A DNA stretch of 49,202 nucleotides from Candidatus Woesearchaeota archaeon (lineage in GTDB: Archaea > Nanobdellota > Nanobdellia > Woesearchaeales > JACPJR01): NCBI GenBank assembly GCA_016187565.1, contig JACPJR010000001.1, positions 1 to 49,202 of the forward strand, in the 5' to 3' direction. Position numbers and translations under genes: made by a program. Of this stretch, positions 1,125 through 48,882 are shown in pieces. Below the pieces are notes generated by a model. The model was given only the letters and a program-made list of their open reading frames with translations, was not told the origin of the DNA and did not search any database. Numbering within the stretch: the first letter of the stretch is position 1; each line of letters starts with the position of its first letter.

Positions 1125-2369
1125 CTAATTTTCCCTGACTTCTGGGGCAGGCGATTGTCTTTTGAGGCAAAAATCAGGGTTTATTCCTAGCGTGTGCATT
1201 TCCATGATGACACAGCAGATATTATGGCAGATTACTTTGCACAATACCTCGTTTATCTGAGCAGTCCACTTTTTGCTTCTTACTGAATCACCAAACTTGG
1301 ATTTAATCATCATTATTGTAGTTTCTGAGTTGCTTCGCTTGTGGTAATGGTTTAGGAAGTCCTCGTTATTTAACATGAAGTAATGATACATTTTCTTCCA
1401 TACCATTCCATTTCCTGACGGTTGGCTGTTGCTTTTGAAGGGAATAAAAGCAGTTGCCCCTTTCTCATTAATCAATTCGAGATTATCTTGGCTTAGATAT
1501 GCCTTGTCACAGCTTATTTCATCCATATTGAAATGCTCGGCTGTCATGTTCACTAACTGCTTTAACTCAGGGCAATCGTTGTCAAATTCAGAGGTAATAG
1601 AAACGCTTGTTATCACATTTGTTTTGTGACCATTCATAAAGTGGCATTTAACCCATCTTCTTGATGAAATCTCTTTGCCGTGCTTGAAGGAATACCATCT
1701 TTGAAAGTTTGAAGTTCCAAAGCCCGTGCTGTCAATTCCAAAATCTTTTTCCACTGACTTTAAAGGCAAACTTGTGATAGTTACCATTTGGGATAACAAA
1801 GGCGTTAATTCCTCTTTCTGAAAATACCTGAACATACTGTTATAGGGTATTTTCTGCTCGGTAAGCTCATTTTCCTTTGCGAGTTCCAAATCAGTAGAGA
1901 ATCTTCTTCCTGAAAAGGTCGAATATACCTTGAAAATCATTGAATAGATTGTATCTCCTATGCTGTTGGAAGGTCGCCCAAATTCATAGGACGTGCTTTT
2001 AATTCTGCTCGTTATATCAGAAAGTAGTTTCATAAATAACTCTTTTTCATGCTGTTGGGCGACGTTGTACTGCTTCCAGTTCTGGGAATAAGTTTTCCTT
2101 ACTGTCTGCGTTATTGTTACATTCCCCTCATTGTCTATTTGTTGGGTAACAATCATTTCAACAGCCCACAAATGCTTACATTTGCATTTTCTTAATTCAT
2201 GGTCAGGACATGAGCATTTCGCTTCAAAGCCATTGCTTTCAACAATGTAAAACCCTGCTCCCGTCTGTGATGGTACTTTCCATTGTCCTTTATCGTTCTT
2301 GGTTATTCTCGACGTTTTGGCTATTTCAAGTCCCTTTGTTTTCCTTATCTCGATTTGTTCTTGTTGCAT
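1125..2369 (-). CDS. IS transposase with N-terminal SWIM zinc finger and DDE catalytic domain
   Basis: A 414-residue protein. Residues about 50-70 hold a SWIM-type zinc motif (CSCP, then CKCKHLW), expected to bind DNA or protein. The DDE domain follows: first Asp in FGIDSTGFG (about 212), second in ISCDKAYLS (about 285), and the Glu in HYHKRSNSETTIMMIKSK (about 347). This last block fits the Y-(2)-R-(3)-E-(6)-K signature of IS4-type transposases exactly. The stop codon lies only 18 bp from the left IS end, so the gene fills that side of the element. The ATG follows an AT-rich region shared with the divergent RHH gene. No frameshift or missing catalytic residue is seen, so it is probably active. 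Confidence 0.9.
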   Translation of the reverse strand: MQQEQIEIRKTKGLEIAKTSRITKNDKGQWKVPSQTGAGFYIVESNGFEAKCSCPDHELRKCKCKHLWAVEMIVTQQIDNEGNVTITQTVRKTYSQNWKQYNVAQQHEKELFMKLLSDITSRIKSTSYEFGRPSNSIGDTIYSMIFKVYSTFSGRRFSTDLELAKENELTEQKIPYNSMFRYFQKEELTPLLSQMVTITSLPLKSVEKDFGIDSTGFGTSNFQRWYSFKHGKEISSRRWVKCHFMNGHKTNVITSVSITSEFDNDCPELKQLVNMTAEHFNMDEISCDKAYLSQDNLELINEKGATAFIPFKSNSQPSGNGMVWKKMYHYFMLNNEDFLNHYHKRSNSETTIMMIKSKFGDSVRSKKWTAQINEVLCKVICHNICCVIMEMHTLGINPDFCLKRQSPAPEVREN

Positions 2370-8100: not shown

Positions 8101-10505
8101 TGGAGAAGAACTTCACATTTAGGAATACCCTCACAGGGCGTACTTTGGATGACTCCATGACAGAGATAACTTTGTTCTCCAGGGCATTGTGTTTTTGAGG
8201 GTTTTCCATCACAGATGTAGATGACCTCTTCTTCTTCACAGGGCTTGTATTGCTTTTGTCCATCGCAGATATAGGAGTTTTCTTCTAAGCAATTTTTTAG
8301 GCAGACTTTATCATCTTCTCCCCCACAACTTCCCCTGCAATTAAGCACTGCACCATCAACAATCTCTTGGCCATCATAGCATTTTGTCAAACACTCATCA
8401 TTTTTCCAGCATTTCCATTTACAGCTTTCTTTCAGTTCCTCAGGAAGTTCTTCTCGGGATTGGCAGGTCATACAATTGTCACATTGTGGTTGACAGCTTG
8501 TGTTCATGGCCTCATTTCTGAGCTGCCCACAATTTTGGACGCTATTATCACAGTAACCAACTTCTTCATTGATACATGGCCAGCAGGTTTCACATTCAGC
8601 AAAACAGCGTTGATCCTCTGGCTTGCATGATTTGCGTGATTCACATCCATCCTTCCAATCTCCATTACAGTCATAAAATCCCTCTGTACATTCACAGAAA
8701 GCTTTCTCATCATTAAAGGCTTGGTTGTCCTGACAATCCCACATTCCTGCGGTATATTCACACTCTCTACAGGGTTTACAGAGTTCATCACATGCACCAG
8801 GATTATTGGCATTATTATTCTCTTCATTACATTCATTACAGGGCTTGCAGGTTTGACGACAACCCCCCCCATATGCTTGGTCTTCACAATTCCAGCACTC
8901 ATCACAGGCTTCTTGAATAGTATCTTGTTGGTTACATGGCCAGCAACTTTCTTGGCATATGGCTTCACATTTATTTGGATCTCCTCTATTTTCTTCTTGG
9001 CATTTGTTGCATGATGTACAGGAAGACTCACAAAGCTTTGAGGTTGTGTCCCAACATCCGCCGATCGGATTACAAACATCTTCGCAGGTATTACTTCCAC
9101 ATTCCCGGGTATTCAAACAGTCTGGATCTCCACAATCAACAATTTGATCTCCATCATCATCAACACGGTTTTTACAATCTTCTTCCCCACCCAGGGCAAA
9201 GATACATCCACCATTGAGACATCCTTCATCATCCTTACATTTTACCTCAGTGTTTTGACACCATCCATTTGTTCGCTCTTCAATATTTTCATAGATACGG
9301 TATTCATATCCTATTTGGGTAATTGGTTCCTCTTTTACGTCTCCATATTCCTGCATAAGTGACGTAATGAATGAAACCCGTTGTGTAAAAAACTCTTGTA
9401 CTTTTTCTGAGGATTTTTCTGGAGCACGATCACGGTGTTCCATTTCTCCCTGCTTCCTGTTAAGGAGATCATTAATGACATTGATTTCTTGTCGCGCCTT
9501 TTCGATAGTATTCCATGCATCTCGCTTTGATTGTTTGGTAGAAAAAACAAGGTCATCAGTTACTTCTCGTATCTTTTCGAAGAGTTCCTCGCTAGATAAT
9601 GTTTCATATCTTCGTCGAAGTTCTTCTTGTGATTGTTGTCCACCATTTTCCTGTTTCCCTTGTGGGCCTGGTCCACGTGATTCAAGTTCATACCAAGTAT
9701 TGACCCATTGGAATGGACAATCTTCACTGCAATATTCTGTTTGCATGATCAGCTCAAGATCATCAGTGCTGTATATAGGAACAGTTAACCGTACTTTATG
9801 TTGCTCGCCACTTTTTTTTCCGTCGAAGATTTCATTCATGACCCACTCACAGCTTCCTCTGTTTTGCTCAACATACTGGTTCAGCAAGTGTTCATCGGTT
9901 CCTACCTCCTTCATGATGGTTTCTGGACTCGTTTCATTAGCAACATATCCTTGAACACTATTACTCAAATCATTGAGGAGAGCATCTGTTTCAAGGGTAA
10001 ATACTTTCTTAAATGCAGGATCAAAATCAATATGATAGAAAAGCGTTGTCTTTTCATCTTCCACAATAACCTGGGGCCAGGCGTTCATGGTAATTTGTAT
10101 CTTGTTTCCGTCGAAAATCGTCTTTTCCCATCGGGGCACAGGAGCATCTAATCGGTACTCTTTCCGCAAATTTTCAGCTCTTGCCCAACTGGTTTCTTCG
10201 GTAGGCTCTCCGAAGATTGATCGTACTGCTTGCTCGCTTAAGCCACGTCTCCGGTCATGCTCATCTAATGTTACCTCAATGATTTCCTTCTCAAAGACTT
10301 TATTGATCTCCTCTCTTACCGCATTTGCATGTACCACCATTTGGGCATAGCTTATTTTTCCTTCTTCATACGCCTTGGCCTGCTCCACAAGAAAATGGAT
10401 TTTATCTTCAACAGTTGCTTCTTCAGCAAGAACACCTGGCAAAAAGAGAATAAGGCCTAGCATAACGATCACCACTAATGCCGTTTGTTCTTGTAACTTA
10501 CCCAT
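5193..10505 (-). CDS. Giant secreted Cys-rich, Glu-rich protein (1770 residues)
   Basis: The largest gene of the window; I do not recognise its function. The start MGKLQEQTA is chosen because a TTTATATA box lies about 32 bp upstream; the frame opens 39 codons earlier but that would precede the promoter. A signal peptide covers residues 1-27 (hydrophobic VVIVMLGLILFLPGVLA). Residues 30-410 form an ordered, partly helical domain. From about 410 to 925 there are dense cysteines in short repeats, including DDDGDQIVDCGDPDC and DDDDDFMADC, which look like Ca-binding loops seen in archaeal surface proteins. Residues 930-1210 are a Glu/Gln-rich low-complexity linker. A second Cys block (about 1215-1370) repeats DCNGDWKDGCES, already seen near 620. 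The last 400 residues form another Cys-poor domain. No C-terminal membrane anchor is visible. Probably extracellular, disulfide-bonded and stalk-like. Confidence 0.8.
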   Translation of the reverse strand: MGKLQEQTALVVIVMLGLILFLPGVLAEEATVEDKIHFLVEQAKAYEEGKISYAQMVVHANAVREEINKVFEKEIIEVTLDEHDRRRGLSEQAVRSIFGEPTEETSWARAENLRKEYRLDAPVPRWEKTIFDGNKIQITMNAWPQVIVEDEKTTLFYHIDFDPAFKKVFTLETDALLNDLSNSVQGYVANETSPETIMKEVGTDEHLLNQYVEQNRGSCEWVMNEIFDGKKSGEQHKVRLTVPIYSTDDLELIMQTEYCSEDCPFQWVNTWYELESRGPGPQGKQENGGQQSQEELRRRYETLSSEELFEKIREVTDDLVFSTKQSKRDAWNTIEKARQEINVINDLLNRKQGEMEHRDRAPEKSSEKVQEFFTQRVSFITSLMQEYGDVKEEPITQIGYEYRIYENIEERTNGWCQNTEVKCKDDEGCLNGGCIFALGGEEDCKNRVDDDGDQIVDCGDPDCLNTRECGSNTCEDVCNPIGGCWDTTSKLCESSCTSCNKCQEENRGDPNKCEAICQESCWPCNQQDTIQEACDECWNCEDQAYGGGCRQTCKPCNECNEENNNANNPGACDELCKPCRECEYTAGMWDCQDNQAFNDEKAFCECTEGFYDCNGDWKDGCESRKSCKPEDQRCFAECETCWPCINEEVGYCDNSVQNCGQLRNEAMNTSCQPQCDNCMTCQSREELPEELKESCKWKCWKNDECLTKCYDGQEIVDGAVLNCRGSCGGEDDKVCLKNCLEENSYICDGQKQYKPCEEEEVIYICDGKPSKTQCPGEQSYLCHGVIQSTPCEGIPKCEVLLHQRVDPATNSCTCEKGWSDCDQDGSCETEGRCKIGREKCDNRADDDDDFMADCNDLLDCPENALCGVDEVGNFKTCQNQQCLPIAACSISCGECAYLDPEACVCRAEKPCCGNDVCEDGEDYASCILDCVPEEEEEFEKEEGTEEQQPEEETGEGEEQEESPEETIEQDNRSNDNLSNEQQNITTECANNEVLINGTCMPREQEEQEQTEETEQEQQEATERVCLPGETKTEACESGDTITTEECIDNAWVPTNIVCPLVTREQEQLNEGECVLISDCGTGEVCSLGECITLTFEEEAEEEITEEQEEPTENEEGRENIPREETGEQTPPEQAGVQEQQEPMNEEQPEVREDAPGEEVPREEEKNTEPSQSTENEQQPQEGEAEGEASSEREVYLGAEPMINEPETFLERLKKLTGSVVASGNECRDHKDCDDGEFCIREPRSERYGVCVSSCETNEDCPDPNTQACWGNECHCRQEGDENDMLVLFNCDGNFMNGCESQDPTCGGTKDPCGEMRCENPNQWCDPAIGDCRCKEGFNDCNGDWKDGCESTKECYGCTTDADCAAPRCEEWGNRVIAFTCKQGPTWVEERGVFQLSGSCDVHPTGKVDGYVHFDMWGDPFEKLQGQRFDGNRQEEWCSWELENLKKERAELEASLNDAFLNWFFTEYITQNPMNFEQYIGGIFEVYWKGLVENSRETAMMLQCLGSNEWPSEYHPLSLAYEGELGSVKIWEEESTMNLNELNQEFAQEFGNEKQVIFSPYMQISIFPPKELVKEIFKESWEEGYMPGPPEEREKYFGPSTIEVAAIKADPGAMAKIKEISDSFENGAVFTVSIRDDDEDIFKALVRINEDVIFRAEPLPQNYTEEPDATVEVDFDFIYNLISKQEKEGFVEYPPWEERPKEVVKEVVKTISAFTTISTGIATGKIKVEPFSQSFKILGLIKDVATMKEQGTREEEDMQERTGKGGKERST

Positions 10506-14360: not shown

Positions 14361-14370
14361 TATTTTTGAC
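14361..14370. repeat. Left 10-bp direct repeat of the MITE-like element
   Basis: TATTTTTGAC, repeated exactly at 14537-14546 on the other side of a 166-bp inverted-repeat element; it looks like a target-site duplication. Confidence 0.65.
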
Positions 14371-14536
14371 AGCTCCATCCAAAAATTCGTTACCGTTCAG
14401 GCTAGCAGCTTCAAAATTCTTGACCGGTGATGTGAAAGGGCTATGTTCCCGTAGGGAGCCACCCCTCATAACGCCCGTGATCATGTATGGAATTGAATTT
14501 TGACTTGAGGCTGCTAGCCCTTTTTCTGGATGGAGC
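14371..14536. mobile_element. MITE-like 166-bp element with long imperfect terminal inverted repeats
   Basis: The left arm AGCTCCATCC (14371-14380), GGCTAGCAGC (14400-14409) and TCAAAATTC (14411-14419) pairs with the right arm GAATTTTGA (14495-14503), GCTGCTAGCC (14510-14519) and GGATGGAGCT (14528-14537). Exact 10-bp direct repeats flank the structure. A further small hairpin sits at the centre (GGCT, TCCC gta GGGA, AGCC near 14439-14460). There is no gene inside. The element ends seven bases before the probable TATA box of the next gene, with the duplication in between, so its insertion or RNA could affect that gene. The ends do not match the IS at 1107-3456, so the transposase that moved it is elsewhere. 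Confidence 0.6.
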
Positions 14537-14546
14537 TATTTTTGAC
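14537..14546. repeat. Right 10-bp direct repeat of the MITE-like element
   Basis: TATTTTTGAC, identical to 14361-14370. Confidence 0.65.
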
Positions 14547-42484: not shown

Positions 42485-43348
42485 ATGAAGATTGGGTTTT
42501 TACATTCGCTGATTCGACCAGAAGAAAAAATGTTGATTGAGGAATTTCAACGCAGAAAAAACGTAGAGTTGGTTATGATGGATGACCGTGAATTCGAGTT
42601 TACCTTAGGAAAAACTACGTTTCCCGTTGATATTGTTATCGAACGTTGTATCAATCATTCACGTGCATTGCATGCCTTACGCTTACTTGAAAGTGCGGGT
42701 ATTCGATGTGTTAATAGCTATAAGGCTGCAACGATTTGTGGTGATAAACTCCTAACTTCAACAGTGCTTGCTGAGCAAGGAGTGCCACAACCAGAGGTAC
42801 GTATTGCCTTTACTGAGCCGTCTGCATTACATGCCATGGAAACCATGGGATATCCTGTTGTACTCAAGCCTGCGGTTGGTTCCTGGGGAAGATTGCTTGC
42901 AAAAATCAATGATCGCGATGCTGCAGAGGCAATACTCGAACACAAAACCGTCTTAGGAAGTTACCATCACTCTATATTTTATATTCAGAAGTATGTTGCC
43001 AAGAAACAAGGAAGAGATATCCGTAGTTTTGTGATTGGTGATCAATGTATTGCTGCAATTTATCGAACTTCCCCGCACTGGAAGACGAACACTGCATTAG
43101 GAGGAAAGGCTTCAAAGTGTGTTATCACCAAAGAACTTGCGGATATATCGGTTCGTGCTGCACGTGCTGTCCATGGTGATATTGTTGCCATAGATGTTTT
43201 TGAAACGAATGATGGCTTGGTAATCAATGAGGTTAATTATACCATGGAGTTCCGTAACAGTATTCAAACCACGGGTGTAAATATTCCAAAGCTCATTGTT
43301 GACCAGGTTATGAAGATTGGGGAGGAGGTTGTCCATGCCAAAAATTAG
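42485..43348 (+). CDS. lysX: LysW ligase LysX (ATP-grasp)
   Basis: A 287-residue ATP-grasp enzyme, typical of LysX/ArgX. It uses ATP to attach the alpha-amino group of alpha-aminoadipate (LysX) or glutamate (ArgX) to the C-terminal residue of LysW. Visible blocks are [17 protein letters not shown] (about 120-136), [35 protein letters not shown] (about 190-207) and the metal-binding [20 protein letters not shown] (about 250-269), close to the family consensus. I cannot assign aminoadipate versus glutamate by eye. It begins 3 bp after the hydro-lyase gene and overlaps lysY by 14 bp. Confidence 0.92.
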
Positions 43349-44381
43349 CGTCAGCATCGCTGGCGGATCAGGGTATGCAGGCGGAGAACTGTTACGCTTG
43401 CTCTTATTCCATCCACAGGTAGATATCAAGCAAGTAACCTCAGAGCGATTTGCCGGTAAACTGGTGACAAAGGTACATCCGAATTTACGAAAGGTATCAC
43501 TCTTGAAGTTTTCCCGTATTGATGAGCTTCAGCCCTGCGATGTGCTTTTCCTCTGTCTTCCTCATGGAACAAGTATGCAGCATATGGCTCAGTATCAGAA
43601 AATTGCTCCGAAGATTATTGACCTGAGTGGAGACTTTCGACTCAAGAGCAAGGAAGCGTATGAACAATGGTACGGACATCAGCATACTCATCCTTCTTTA
43701 CTTGGATCTTTTGTGTATGGCATTCCAGAACTCCATCGTGCAGAAATGCAGAAGGCTTCGCTCATCTCAAGCGCTGGATGTAATGCGACGGCAACTATCT
43801 TAGCATTGTATCCGTTATTCAAGCATCGCCTTGTTGAGGAACAGCAGACGGTTGTTGAAGTAAAGGCAGGATCCAGTGAAGGTGGAAATACGCCAAGCTT
43901 AGCATCCCATCATCCTGAAAGAACAGGTTGTGTCAGGAGCTTTAAGCCAACCCAACATAGACATATTGCTGAAATGCTTCAAGAGTTGAGCATGGGAAAA
44001 AAGGTTCAGATTCATTTTTCAGCTACTGCACTTGATCTTGTTCGTGGGATCTTGGCAACCTGTCATGTTTTCCTGAAGAAGGACTTGGATGAAAAGGAGA
44101 TCTGGAAGATCTATCGTGAAGCATATGGTGACGAGCCCTTTATCAGAATTGTGAAGGAGAATGAGGGAATCTATCGTTATCCAGAACCAAAGATTTTGAT
44201 GGGAACAAATTACTGTGATATTGGTTTTGAAAAGGATTCTGCAAGCAATCGACTTGTGGTGATGAGTGCTATTGATAATCTCATGAAGGGAGCTGCAGGC
44301 CAGGCAGTACAGGCCTTTAATATTATGCATGGCTTTCCTGAAACAACTGGCTTAACCTTTCCTGGATTACATCCTGTTTAA
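43335..44381 (+). CDS. lysY: LysW-aminoadipyl/glutamyl phosphate reductase LysY
   Basis: A 348-residue NADPH-dependent dehydrogenase of the ArgC family. [20 protein letters not shown] (residues 7-26) is the NADP-binding loop and [18 protein letters not shown] (about 145-162) contains the catalytic Cys. [20 protein letters not shown] is the family substrate loop and [18 protein letters not shown] the C-terminal conserved block. It reduces the acyl-phosphate made by LysZ to the semialdehyde while the substrate is bound to LysW. GGAGGAGGTT before ATG 43335 decides the start, which lies inside the end of lysX. Confidence 0.93.
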
Positions 44382-48487: not shown

Positions 48488-48560
48488 GCCCCTGTAGCAT
48501 AGTAGCTATTGCGACAGCCTTGTAAGCTGTAGGTCACGAGTGCAACTCTCGTCAGGGGCT
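48488..48560 (+). tRNA. tRNA-Thr (anticodon UGU)
   Basis: The 73-nt sequence folds into a cloverleaf: acceptor GCCCCTG with CAGGGGC, anticodon stem ACAGC with GCTGT around loop CTTGTAA (anticodon TGT), and T stem ACGAG with CTCGT. The discriminator is T, as expected for archaeal tRNA-Thr. CCA is not encoded. Two elbow positions are unusual: the T loop is TGCAACT, with G at position 55 where U (pseudouridine) is nearly universal, and the D loop has G18-C19 in place of G18-G19. The D stem has one weak pair (T13-T22). Confidence 0.9.
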
Positions 48561-48602
48561 TTACTTAAGTCAGTCTTTAACTGAAATACCTCATTCATAA
48601 AT

Positions 48603-48775
48603 CACACGCCGCGCCGATGGCAGCTGACGGATTTGCTTAACGGGCAAATCCTACGAAGCACCCCAAAGGGGGCCCGCTTCGTCAGCGCCCACGCGGCGTG
48701 CGACGAGCCGAGGCTCCTACGGAGTGGCGAGTAGGCTGCAAAGCAGCCGTCGCACCGCCATAACCGGCGCTGTAA
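48603..48775. ncRNA. GC-rich structured RNA candidate or repeat element
   Basis: No gene is seen in 48561-48882. This part is far richer in G and C than its surroundings and folds densely. CACGCCGCG (48605-48613) pairs with CGCGGCGTG (48692-48700); inside it GCTGACG (48623-48629) pairs with CGTCAGC (48680-48686), enclosing hairpins GGATTTGC/GCAAATCC (48629-48636 with 48644-48651) and GAAGC/GCTTC (48655-48659 with 48676-48680) topped by CCCC-GGGG. A second domain closes with TGCGACG (48699-48705) and CGTCGCA (48748-48754) and contains GGCTGC/GCAGCC and CTCC/GGAG hairpins. It does not look like RNase P, SRP or rRNA. The strand is not determined. Confidence 0.5.
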
Positions 48776-48882
48776 ATTTAAGATTTACTTTATTTACCTA
48801 TCTTTTGATTGGGTGTTTATACAAACCTCAGCAAATCCTCTTTTTGAAAAACCTTTTCCTGATCTCTTTTTTGATATTATGA

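Follow-up and report, generated by a model that had tools for sequence, protein, structure and literature searches.

A probably selfish GTAG-tagged palindromic repeat with three-way-junction heads in an order of archaea

Results

A GC-rich folded island beside a tRNA gene

The window analysed here is the first 49,202 nucleotides of contig JACPJR010000001.1 of a Candidatus Woesearchaeota archaeon (assembly GCA_016187565.1). Downstream of a tRNA-Thr gene lies a stretch, 48603-48775, that a sequence-only reading had described as a GC-rich candidate for a folded RNA, with perfect stems forming two closed domains and no known RNA family recognised (Table 1). The composition bears this description out: GC content is 0.659 compared with 0.408 for the window and 0.38-0.41 for the flanks, and among all 173-base stretches of the window GC peaks in the one that begins at 48600. 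Direct reading of the sequence also showed that the stems and closed domains are correct. Beside the outer basal stem, the copy contains stems of 8 bp (GGATTTGC/GCAAATCC), 7 bp (GTGCGAC/GTCGCAC), 6 bp (GGCTGC/GCAGCC), and 5 bp (GAAGC/GCTTC). The outer stem of unit B, CAGCGCC/GGCGCTG, competes with CACGCCGCG/CGCGGCGTG of unit A; because the two overlap (48683-48689/48766-48772 versus 48605-48613/48692-48700), they are mutually exclusive.

Folding of 48595-48785 with RNA parameters gave a minimum free energy of -89.4 kcal/mol on the + strand (z -5.6) and -94.9 on the - strand (z -5.0), and on neither strand was any of 200 shuffled sequences as good. With DNA parameters the z value for 48603-48775 was -4.3. 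The only Rfam match in the window was the tRNA-Thr gene, and relaxing the threshold returned sub-gathering noise only, so that no known RNA family could be assigned to the stretch. Homology among copies, as seen by BLAST, reaches to about 48593 on the left and about 48790 on the right, and the repeat is therefore slightly longer than 48603-48775. Other copies have no tie to tRNA genes. The tRNA-Thr gene beside the window copy is a neighbour and no partner.

Table 1. Positions of the repeat copy, its parts, and the neighbouring tRNA gene in the window.
Feature	Position	Strand	Evidence
tRNA-Thr(TGT), neighbour	48488-48560	+	ARAGORN, Rfam
Whole repeat copy: two inverted three-way-junction units with short conserved A+T-rich tails	48593-48790		BLAST extent, end alignments
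Outer basal stem of unit A, 5' strand CACGCCGCG; pairs with 48692-48700, 9 bp	48605-48613		Sequence, RNA and DNA folds
Unit A (three-way-junction head)	48618-48689	-	Covariance model R1, 85.1 bits, E 1.3e-14
Arm 2 hairpin of unit A (GGATTTGC...GCAAATCC)	48629-48651	-	Sequence, co-varying helix 4
GTAGG tag of unit A, foot of arm 2	48650-48654	-	Sequence
Arm 1 hairpin of unit A (GAAGC...GCTTC, apical CCCC/GGGG)	48655-48680	-	Sequence, co-varying helices 2 and 3
Outer basal stem of unit A, 3' strand CGCGGCGTG; overlaps basal stem of unit B	48692-48700		Sequence, folds
Unit B (three-way-junction head), inverted relative to A	48695-48760	+	Covariance model R1, 44.5 bits, E 1.8e-6
Arm 1 hairpin of unit B (GCC/GGC, apical CTCC-TAC-GGAG)	48707-48728	+	Sequence
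GTAGG tag of unit B, foot of arm 2	48731-48735	+	Sequence
Arm 2 hairpin of unit B (GGCTGC-AAA-GCAGCC), followed by CCGTC	48734-48748	+	Sequence, co-varying helix 4

The stretch is one of many copies in its own genome

The sequence-only reading had proposed a genome-wide search for copies and a covariance model for compensatory changes, and we carried out both. For the first we searched the window's genome (1.94 Mb, 35 contigs). A BLAST search with 48590-48790 gave 35 matches, which fall into about 20 dispersed loci when merged and are 67-93% identical over the aligned parts, and a second query added further repeat fragments. The covariance model R1, described below, gave 37 matches at about 21 loci, intergenic and mostly in inverted pairs. 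Reading the copies revealed one unit present twice, the second time inverted. The gaps that contain them are of mixed type (6 divergent, 11 tandem, 2 convergent, and 2 undetermined) and no copy lies within a clear gene. There is no bias toward either gene end, and the neighbouring gene, the strand, and the gap type all vary. The mixed gap types do not agree with terminators or with a gene-specific RNA.

Some copies carry additional parts. Nested hairpin modules (CAACTGGTTACGCTCAGTTG... and others) occur at two different places of the repeat, either between the heads or inside arm 1, and extra modules (AACTGGTTACGCTCAGTT, GTGCAACTTTATGTTGCAC, GATCAAACTTTGGTAAA, and others) occur in varying combinations and places at loci L012, L014, L010, L017, L020, L004, and L023.

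The unit is a three-way junction maintained by compensatory changes

A bulged basal stem, a G-rich arm 1, a GTAGG linker, arm 2, and CCGTC together make up the unit, which forms a three-way junction and measures 65-90 nt. The basal stem has the consensus GGCG-NTGAC/GTCAN-C-CGCC with one bulged C. Arm 1 runs from a 5-bp stem through a G-rich strand to CCCC-TNC-GGGG. It is followed by the linker GTA, by arm 2, which starts with GG and ends with CC, and by GTC, which closes the basal stem; these together produce a GTAGG-hairpin-CCGTC pattern. The tag at the foot of arm 2 is GTAGG in 70 of 93 units and GCAGG in another 15.

R1 was built on 15 units, the subset of all units that aligned cleanly, and double changes were present at 14 of its 26 pairs. 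In an alignment of 62 units from other genomes (54 distinct), which was fitted to R1 itself, double changes were found at 22 of the 26 pairs and 93% of cells were paired. The covariation score for the 54 distinct units was 0.53, compared with 0.17 when shuffled and less than 0.10 with slid partners. A free RNAalifold run on the same 62-unit alignment recovered the same fold, in which 20 of 23 pairs were compensated. These data show that pairing in the head is kept by compensatory change and that its shape is conserved beyond its sequence. Many copies with decaying stems would have been expected of a simple repeat, according to the sequence-only reading; the copies are indeed many, but their stems are maintained rather than decaying.

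On the complementary strand the arm-1 loop reads GNA closed by C-G in 60 of 80 units. Such a loop is unusually stable in DNA, and this gives a small hint toward DNA over RNA as the folded form. Three-strand co-variation in arm 1, between the 5' G-strand and the C-strand, was weak (71 versus 64 expected with 3-mers and nothing with 4-mers) and for this reason we do not claim it.

The repeat is patchily spread over one order

Of 145 genomes sampled from the same order, 35, belonging to 33 genera, had matches to R1, with up to 27 matches per genome, and the other 110 genomes, most of them near complete, gave no match. In a phylum-wide sample of 279 genomes, whose make-up by order is not given, all 35 positive genomes listed belong to this order. 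The host was placed in this order by its 16S sequence, which is 84.3% identical to that of archaeon GW2011_AR15 and so within the range of 80-84% among members of the order; as AR15 belongs to Woesearchaeota, the host is probably a woesearchaeal (DPANN) archaeon. The ArgC gene of the window, being closest to bacterial copies, was a misleading guide to taxonomy, and 16S was preferred. Searches of viral contigs with two degenerate patterns of the repeat, and of plasmids, gave no match. The repeat is patchily spread over one order of archaea.

One head sits on many palindromic stems

The strands flanking the heads pair with each other: for 45 heads the alignment score was 20.9, compared with 10.5 (sd 2.9) for shuffled sequences. 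The stems that bear the head are of many kinds (AACAACAAT, AATCCAGCCAT, CACCACCACT, GCACGCCAC, CAATCCATTCAT, GCACGCC, and others), and in the genome labelled G106 the same head occurs on two stem types. Genome G175 has six 105-bp copies on one common stem with no duplication seen. The heads of G106, G175, G110, G033, and G003, and those of the two-head family in the window's own genome, occur without the GGCTTCATCC-type ends and the 9-bp duplication described in the next section. The head is not bound to one transposon.

Some heads travel inside elements with terminal inverted repeats

Genome G030 contains four 184-bp copies that are 99-100% identical, unrelated outside, and have a head in the middle of each. 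They start with GGCTTCATCCAAAAAAT and end with its inverse, forming 16-bp inverted repeats. Perfect 9-bp duplications flank all four, with another sequence in every case (CGTTGGCAA, TAACACTAC, CTCTTAAAC, and TAAAAGATG). This terminal repeat, with its GGCTTCATCC-type ends, occurs in 53 of 288 genomes, while controls gave hardly any match, and 23 times in the window's genome. The GGCTTCATCC...AAAT ends together with a 9-bp duplication presumably resemble IS903 of the IS5 family.

In the window's genome, 165-bp elements have G030-type ends and perfect 9-bp duplications and contain only a hairpin like arm 1 and no full head. Contigs C2 and C14 start with the identical end of a G030-type element, of which one end is visible, with a full head inside, and the first 141 bp of contigs C33 and C35, which contain another head, are identical to each other. 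The G030 duplications and the sharing of sequence between C2 and C14 and between C33 and C35 indicate that head-bearing elements moved recently, including in the window's genome. Membership of a MITE is established for the G030-type copies only.

For the window copy and its sisters we found neither a clear target duplication nor a terminal inverted repeat, nor did we see an empty site that matches the window copy. Near-matches of 9-11 bp are scattered around the two-head family of this genome at inconsistent offsets and were judged to be chance. The window copy and its sisters are old copies.

Within the window itself, a 167-bp MITE at 14371-14537 has the ends AGCTCCATCCAAAAA/TTTCTGGATGGAGCT, an arm-1-like hairpin inside, and a perfect 9-bp duplication, ATTTTTGAC, on its two sides (14362-14370 and 14538-14546). 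At least five more copies like it, with 9-bp duplications, are present elsewhere in the genome. Locus L280 (G000:C17, ~10130-10245) is a chimera of the left half of a 165-bp MITE and the right half of a head-type element. Its junction is the G-rich arm, as if the common arm-1 hairpin were the recombination point. Ends of IS200/IS605 type (GGGAGTATG...) directly abut the AAAAATAAA portion of the MITE terminal repeat on contigs C2 and C91 of G030 and at L031 of the window's genome, as if this IS family targets the MITE terminal repeat.

Search for a mobilising enzyme

We looked for a mobilising enzyme in two classes and found none. In the window's genome, all five Y1 (IS200-like) genes lack an R1 head within about 1.5 kb, and a RAYT flanked by heads was thus not found among them. 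The DDE_Tnp_1 loci from 12 genomes, including that at 1125-2369 (-) of the window, have neither a GGCTTCATCC end pair nor a head within about 1.5 kb. The search for an autonomous element with GGCTTCATCC ends, which is limited by the breaking of MAG contigs at such repeats, found none among the terminal-inverted-repeat loci of G030, G142, and the window's genome or around the DDE_Tnp_1 loci. The gene at 1125-2369 encodes a 414-aa DDE_Tnp_1 transposase with a weak match to a SWIM zinc finger and has no matching terminal repeats near it.

Discussion

The closest likeness we see is to the GTAG-tagged REP, REPIN, and BIME sequences, which have GT[AG]G at the hairpin foot and form inverted doublets (PMC6006769), and for which examples nested in longer palindromes are known from A. 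variabilis and H. neapolitanus (PMC3733652). The archaeal repeat shares the GT[AG]G on the 5' side of a hairpin foot, the many dispersed intergenic copies that are often inverted doublets, the patchy spread, and the occasional placement within longer palindromes (PMC3733652, PMC6006769). It differs in the form of its unit, a 65-90 nt three-way junction where a REP is a single hairpin of 20-40 bp (up to 65 nt), in having one arm of the head bordered by GTAGG as well as by CCGTC, and in that none of the five Y1 genes of the window's genome is flanked by heads. Because a single short hairpin and a cognate RAYT (Y1) gene flanked by repeats are defining features of REPs and neither was found here, we do not claim REP membership.

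Other systems are similar in part. Like DDE-type MITEs, the 184-bp copies of G030 have inverted repeats and target duplications, and the same kind of end occurs with a head in the window's genome; unlike such MITEs, most head copies have neither feature and the head is common to unrelated stems. In organelle DNA of Volvox carteri, selfish palindromes inserted in palindromes build larger composite repeats confined to non-coding DNA, which is similar to what we see here; these belong to another domain and compartment and, as described in PMC2670323, show no conserved three-way head. REP-like intergenic palindromes have been called in archaeal genomes by RepRanger, but these are generic stem-loops from a few cultured species, with no mention of Woesearchaeota, DPANN, or a three-way junction (PMC12306157). 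The REP survey names bacterial phyla only (PMC3733652). In the literature searched we found no prior description of an order-wide family of three-way-junction palindromic repeats, which we regard as a variant of the REP/MITE kind.

We think it probable that 48593-48790 is an old copy, immobile or rarely mobile, of a dispersed, REP-like, GTAG-tagged selfish palindromic repeat that also rides inside MITEs. GTAG at a hairpin foot, inverted doublets, and intergenic spread are marks of REPs, and it is in the form of single-stranded hairpins that Y1 proteins (RAYTs) recognise REPs (PMC6006769, PMC3733652). From these marks we propose that the head is read in the same way and acts as folded single-stranded DNA. 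By comparison of its many stems, it would be copied or inserted in trans at the tips of palindromes (hairpins) by a putative enzyme. Where the head lies inside a MITE with terminal inverted repeats, a DDE transposase, perhaps of IS5/IS903 type, would additionally move it; the 9-bp duplications show this step of MITE-borne movement, the identity of the enzyme excepted. Any benefit to the host would be incidental for a selfish repeat of this kind.

The repeat might instead be a plain MITE throughout, that is, a deletion derivative of a DDE transposon whose inner part, the head, is needed for transposition or packing, with the window copy having lost its ends. The G030 copies, the same ends with a head on C2 and C14, the occurrence of the terminal repeat in 53 of 288 genomes with hardly any control matches, and the arm-1-like hairpins in headless 165-bp MITEs with the same ends all speak for this idea. 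We nevertheless find it rather doubtful, since most heads, including those of five other genomes and the two-head family of the window's genome, lack both the ends and the duplication, and one head is found on many different stems. It seems unlikely, too, that in DPANN archaea the head moves as a module in its own right, neither REP nor MITE, in which three-way-junction DNA would insert at the tips of cruciform-forming palindromes, leaving no target duplication, by means of an enzyme so far unlinked to such elements.

The sequence-only reading had left a choice between a novel structured non-coding RNA and a repeat element. The second part of this proposal stands, given the copies at about 21 loci and the patchy order-wide spread, and the first is not borne out. 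A structured RNA, or an element carried in mRNA as a regulator, protein-binding RNA, or processing signal, that is multi-copy by happenstance would account for the strong fold and the covariation, and among bacterial REPs transcription is common, as is a role as RNA hairpins (PMC3733652). We judge it very improbable: the repeat matches no Rfam family, its neighbours, strand, and gap type are not constant, it occurs in inverted pairs, and its relatives have marks of mobility such as target duplications. A dedicated non-coding RNA role is therefore unlikely, and the folded stretch is most likely a genomic parasite rather than a dedicated RNA gene. Still further from probable, to the point of being hardly credible, is a transcription terminator or a supercoiling or gyrase-type site kept for the host. 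Long perfect stems in intergenic DNA and the position of the window copy 3' of a tRNA gene would suit such a site, but the mixed gap contexts and the many near-complete genomes of the order that have no match do not, and the absence of a 3'-end bias among the copies speaks against the role of terminator.

REP-type palindromes have been catalogued from bacteria, and an order-wide GTAG-tagged family would show such parasites thriving in the streamlined genomes of DPANN archaea. The family supplies a search model and young copies with which to find the enzyme that moves it. The repeat also explains a class of GC-rich folded islands that resemble novel RNAs in AT-rich archaeal genomes, and some of the contig breaks in these metagenome assemblies.

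Other loci

Two further observations concern genes rather than the repeat. At L031 (G000:C5, 2058-2780 and 2978-3379) and L033 (G000:C35, 489-1208), frames end in variable tails like those of C-type lectins. The tails contain near-repeated stretches of CTGCGTCTTTTCAGTCCTG type, and IS200-like Y1 genes adjoin the frames. On C5 the start of a reverse-transcriptase-like frame lies beside the variable frames, and the two variable proteins have no Pfam match. The variable frames with the reverse-transcriptase-like start look like a diversity-generating retroelement. In the window, 43317-44381 (+) encodes an ArgC/LysY-like protein that is closest to bacterial sequences (Calditrichota/KSB1, 73%), and the only archaeal match among the best 80 is from GW2011_AR15 (63%). 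This pattern of relatives suggests that the gene was transferred from bacteria.
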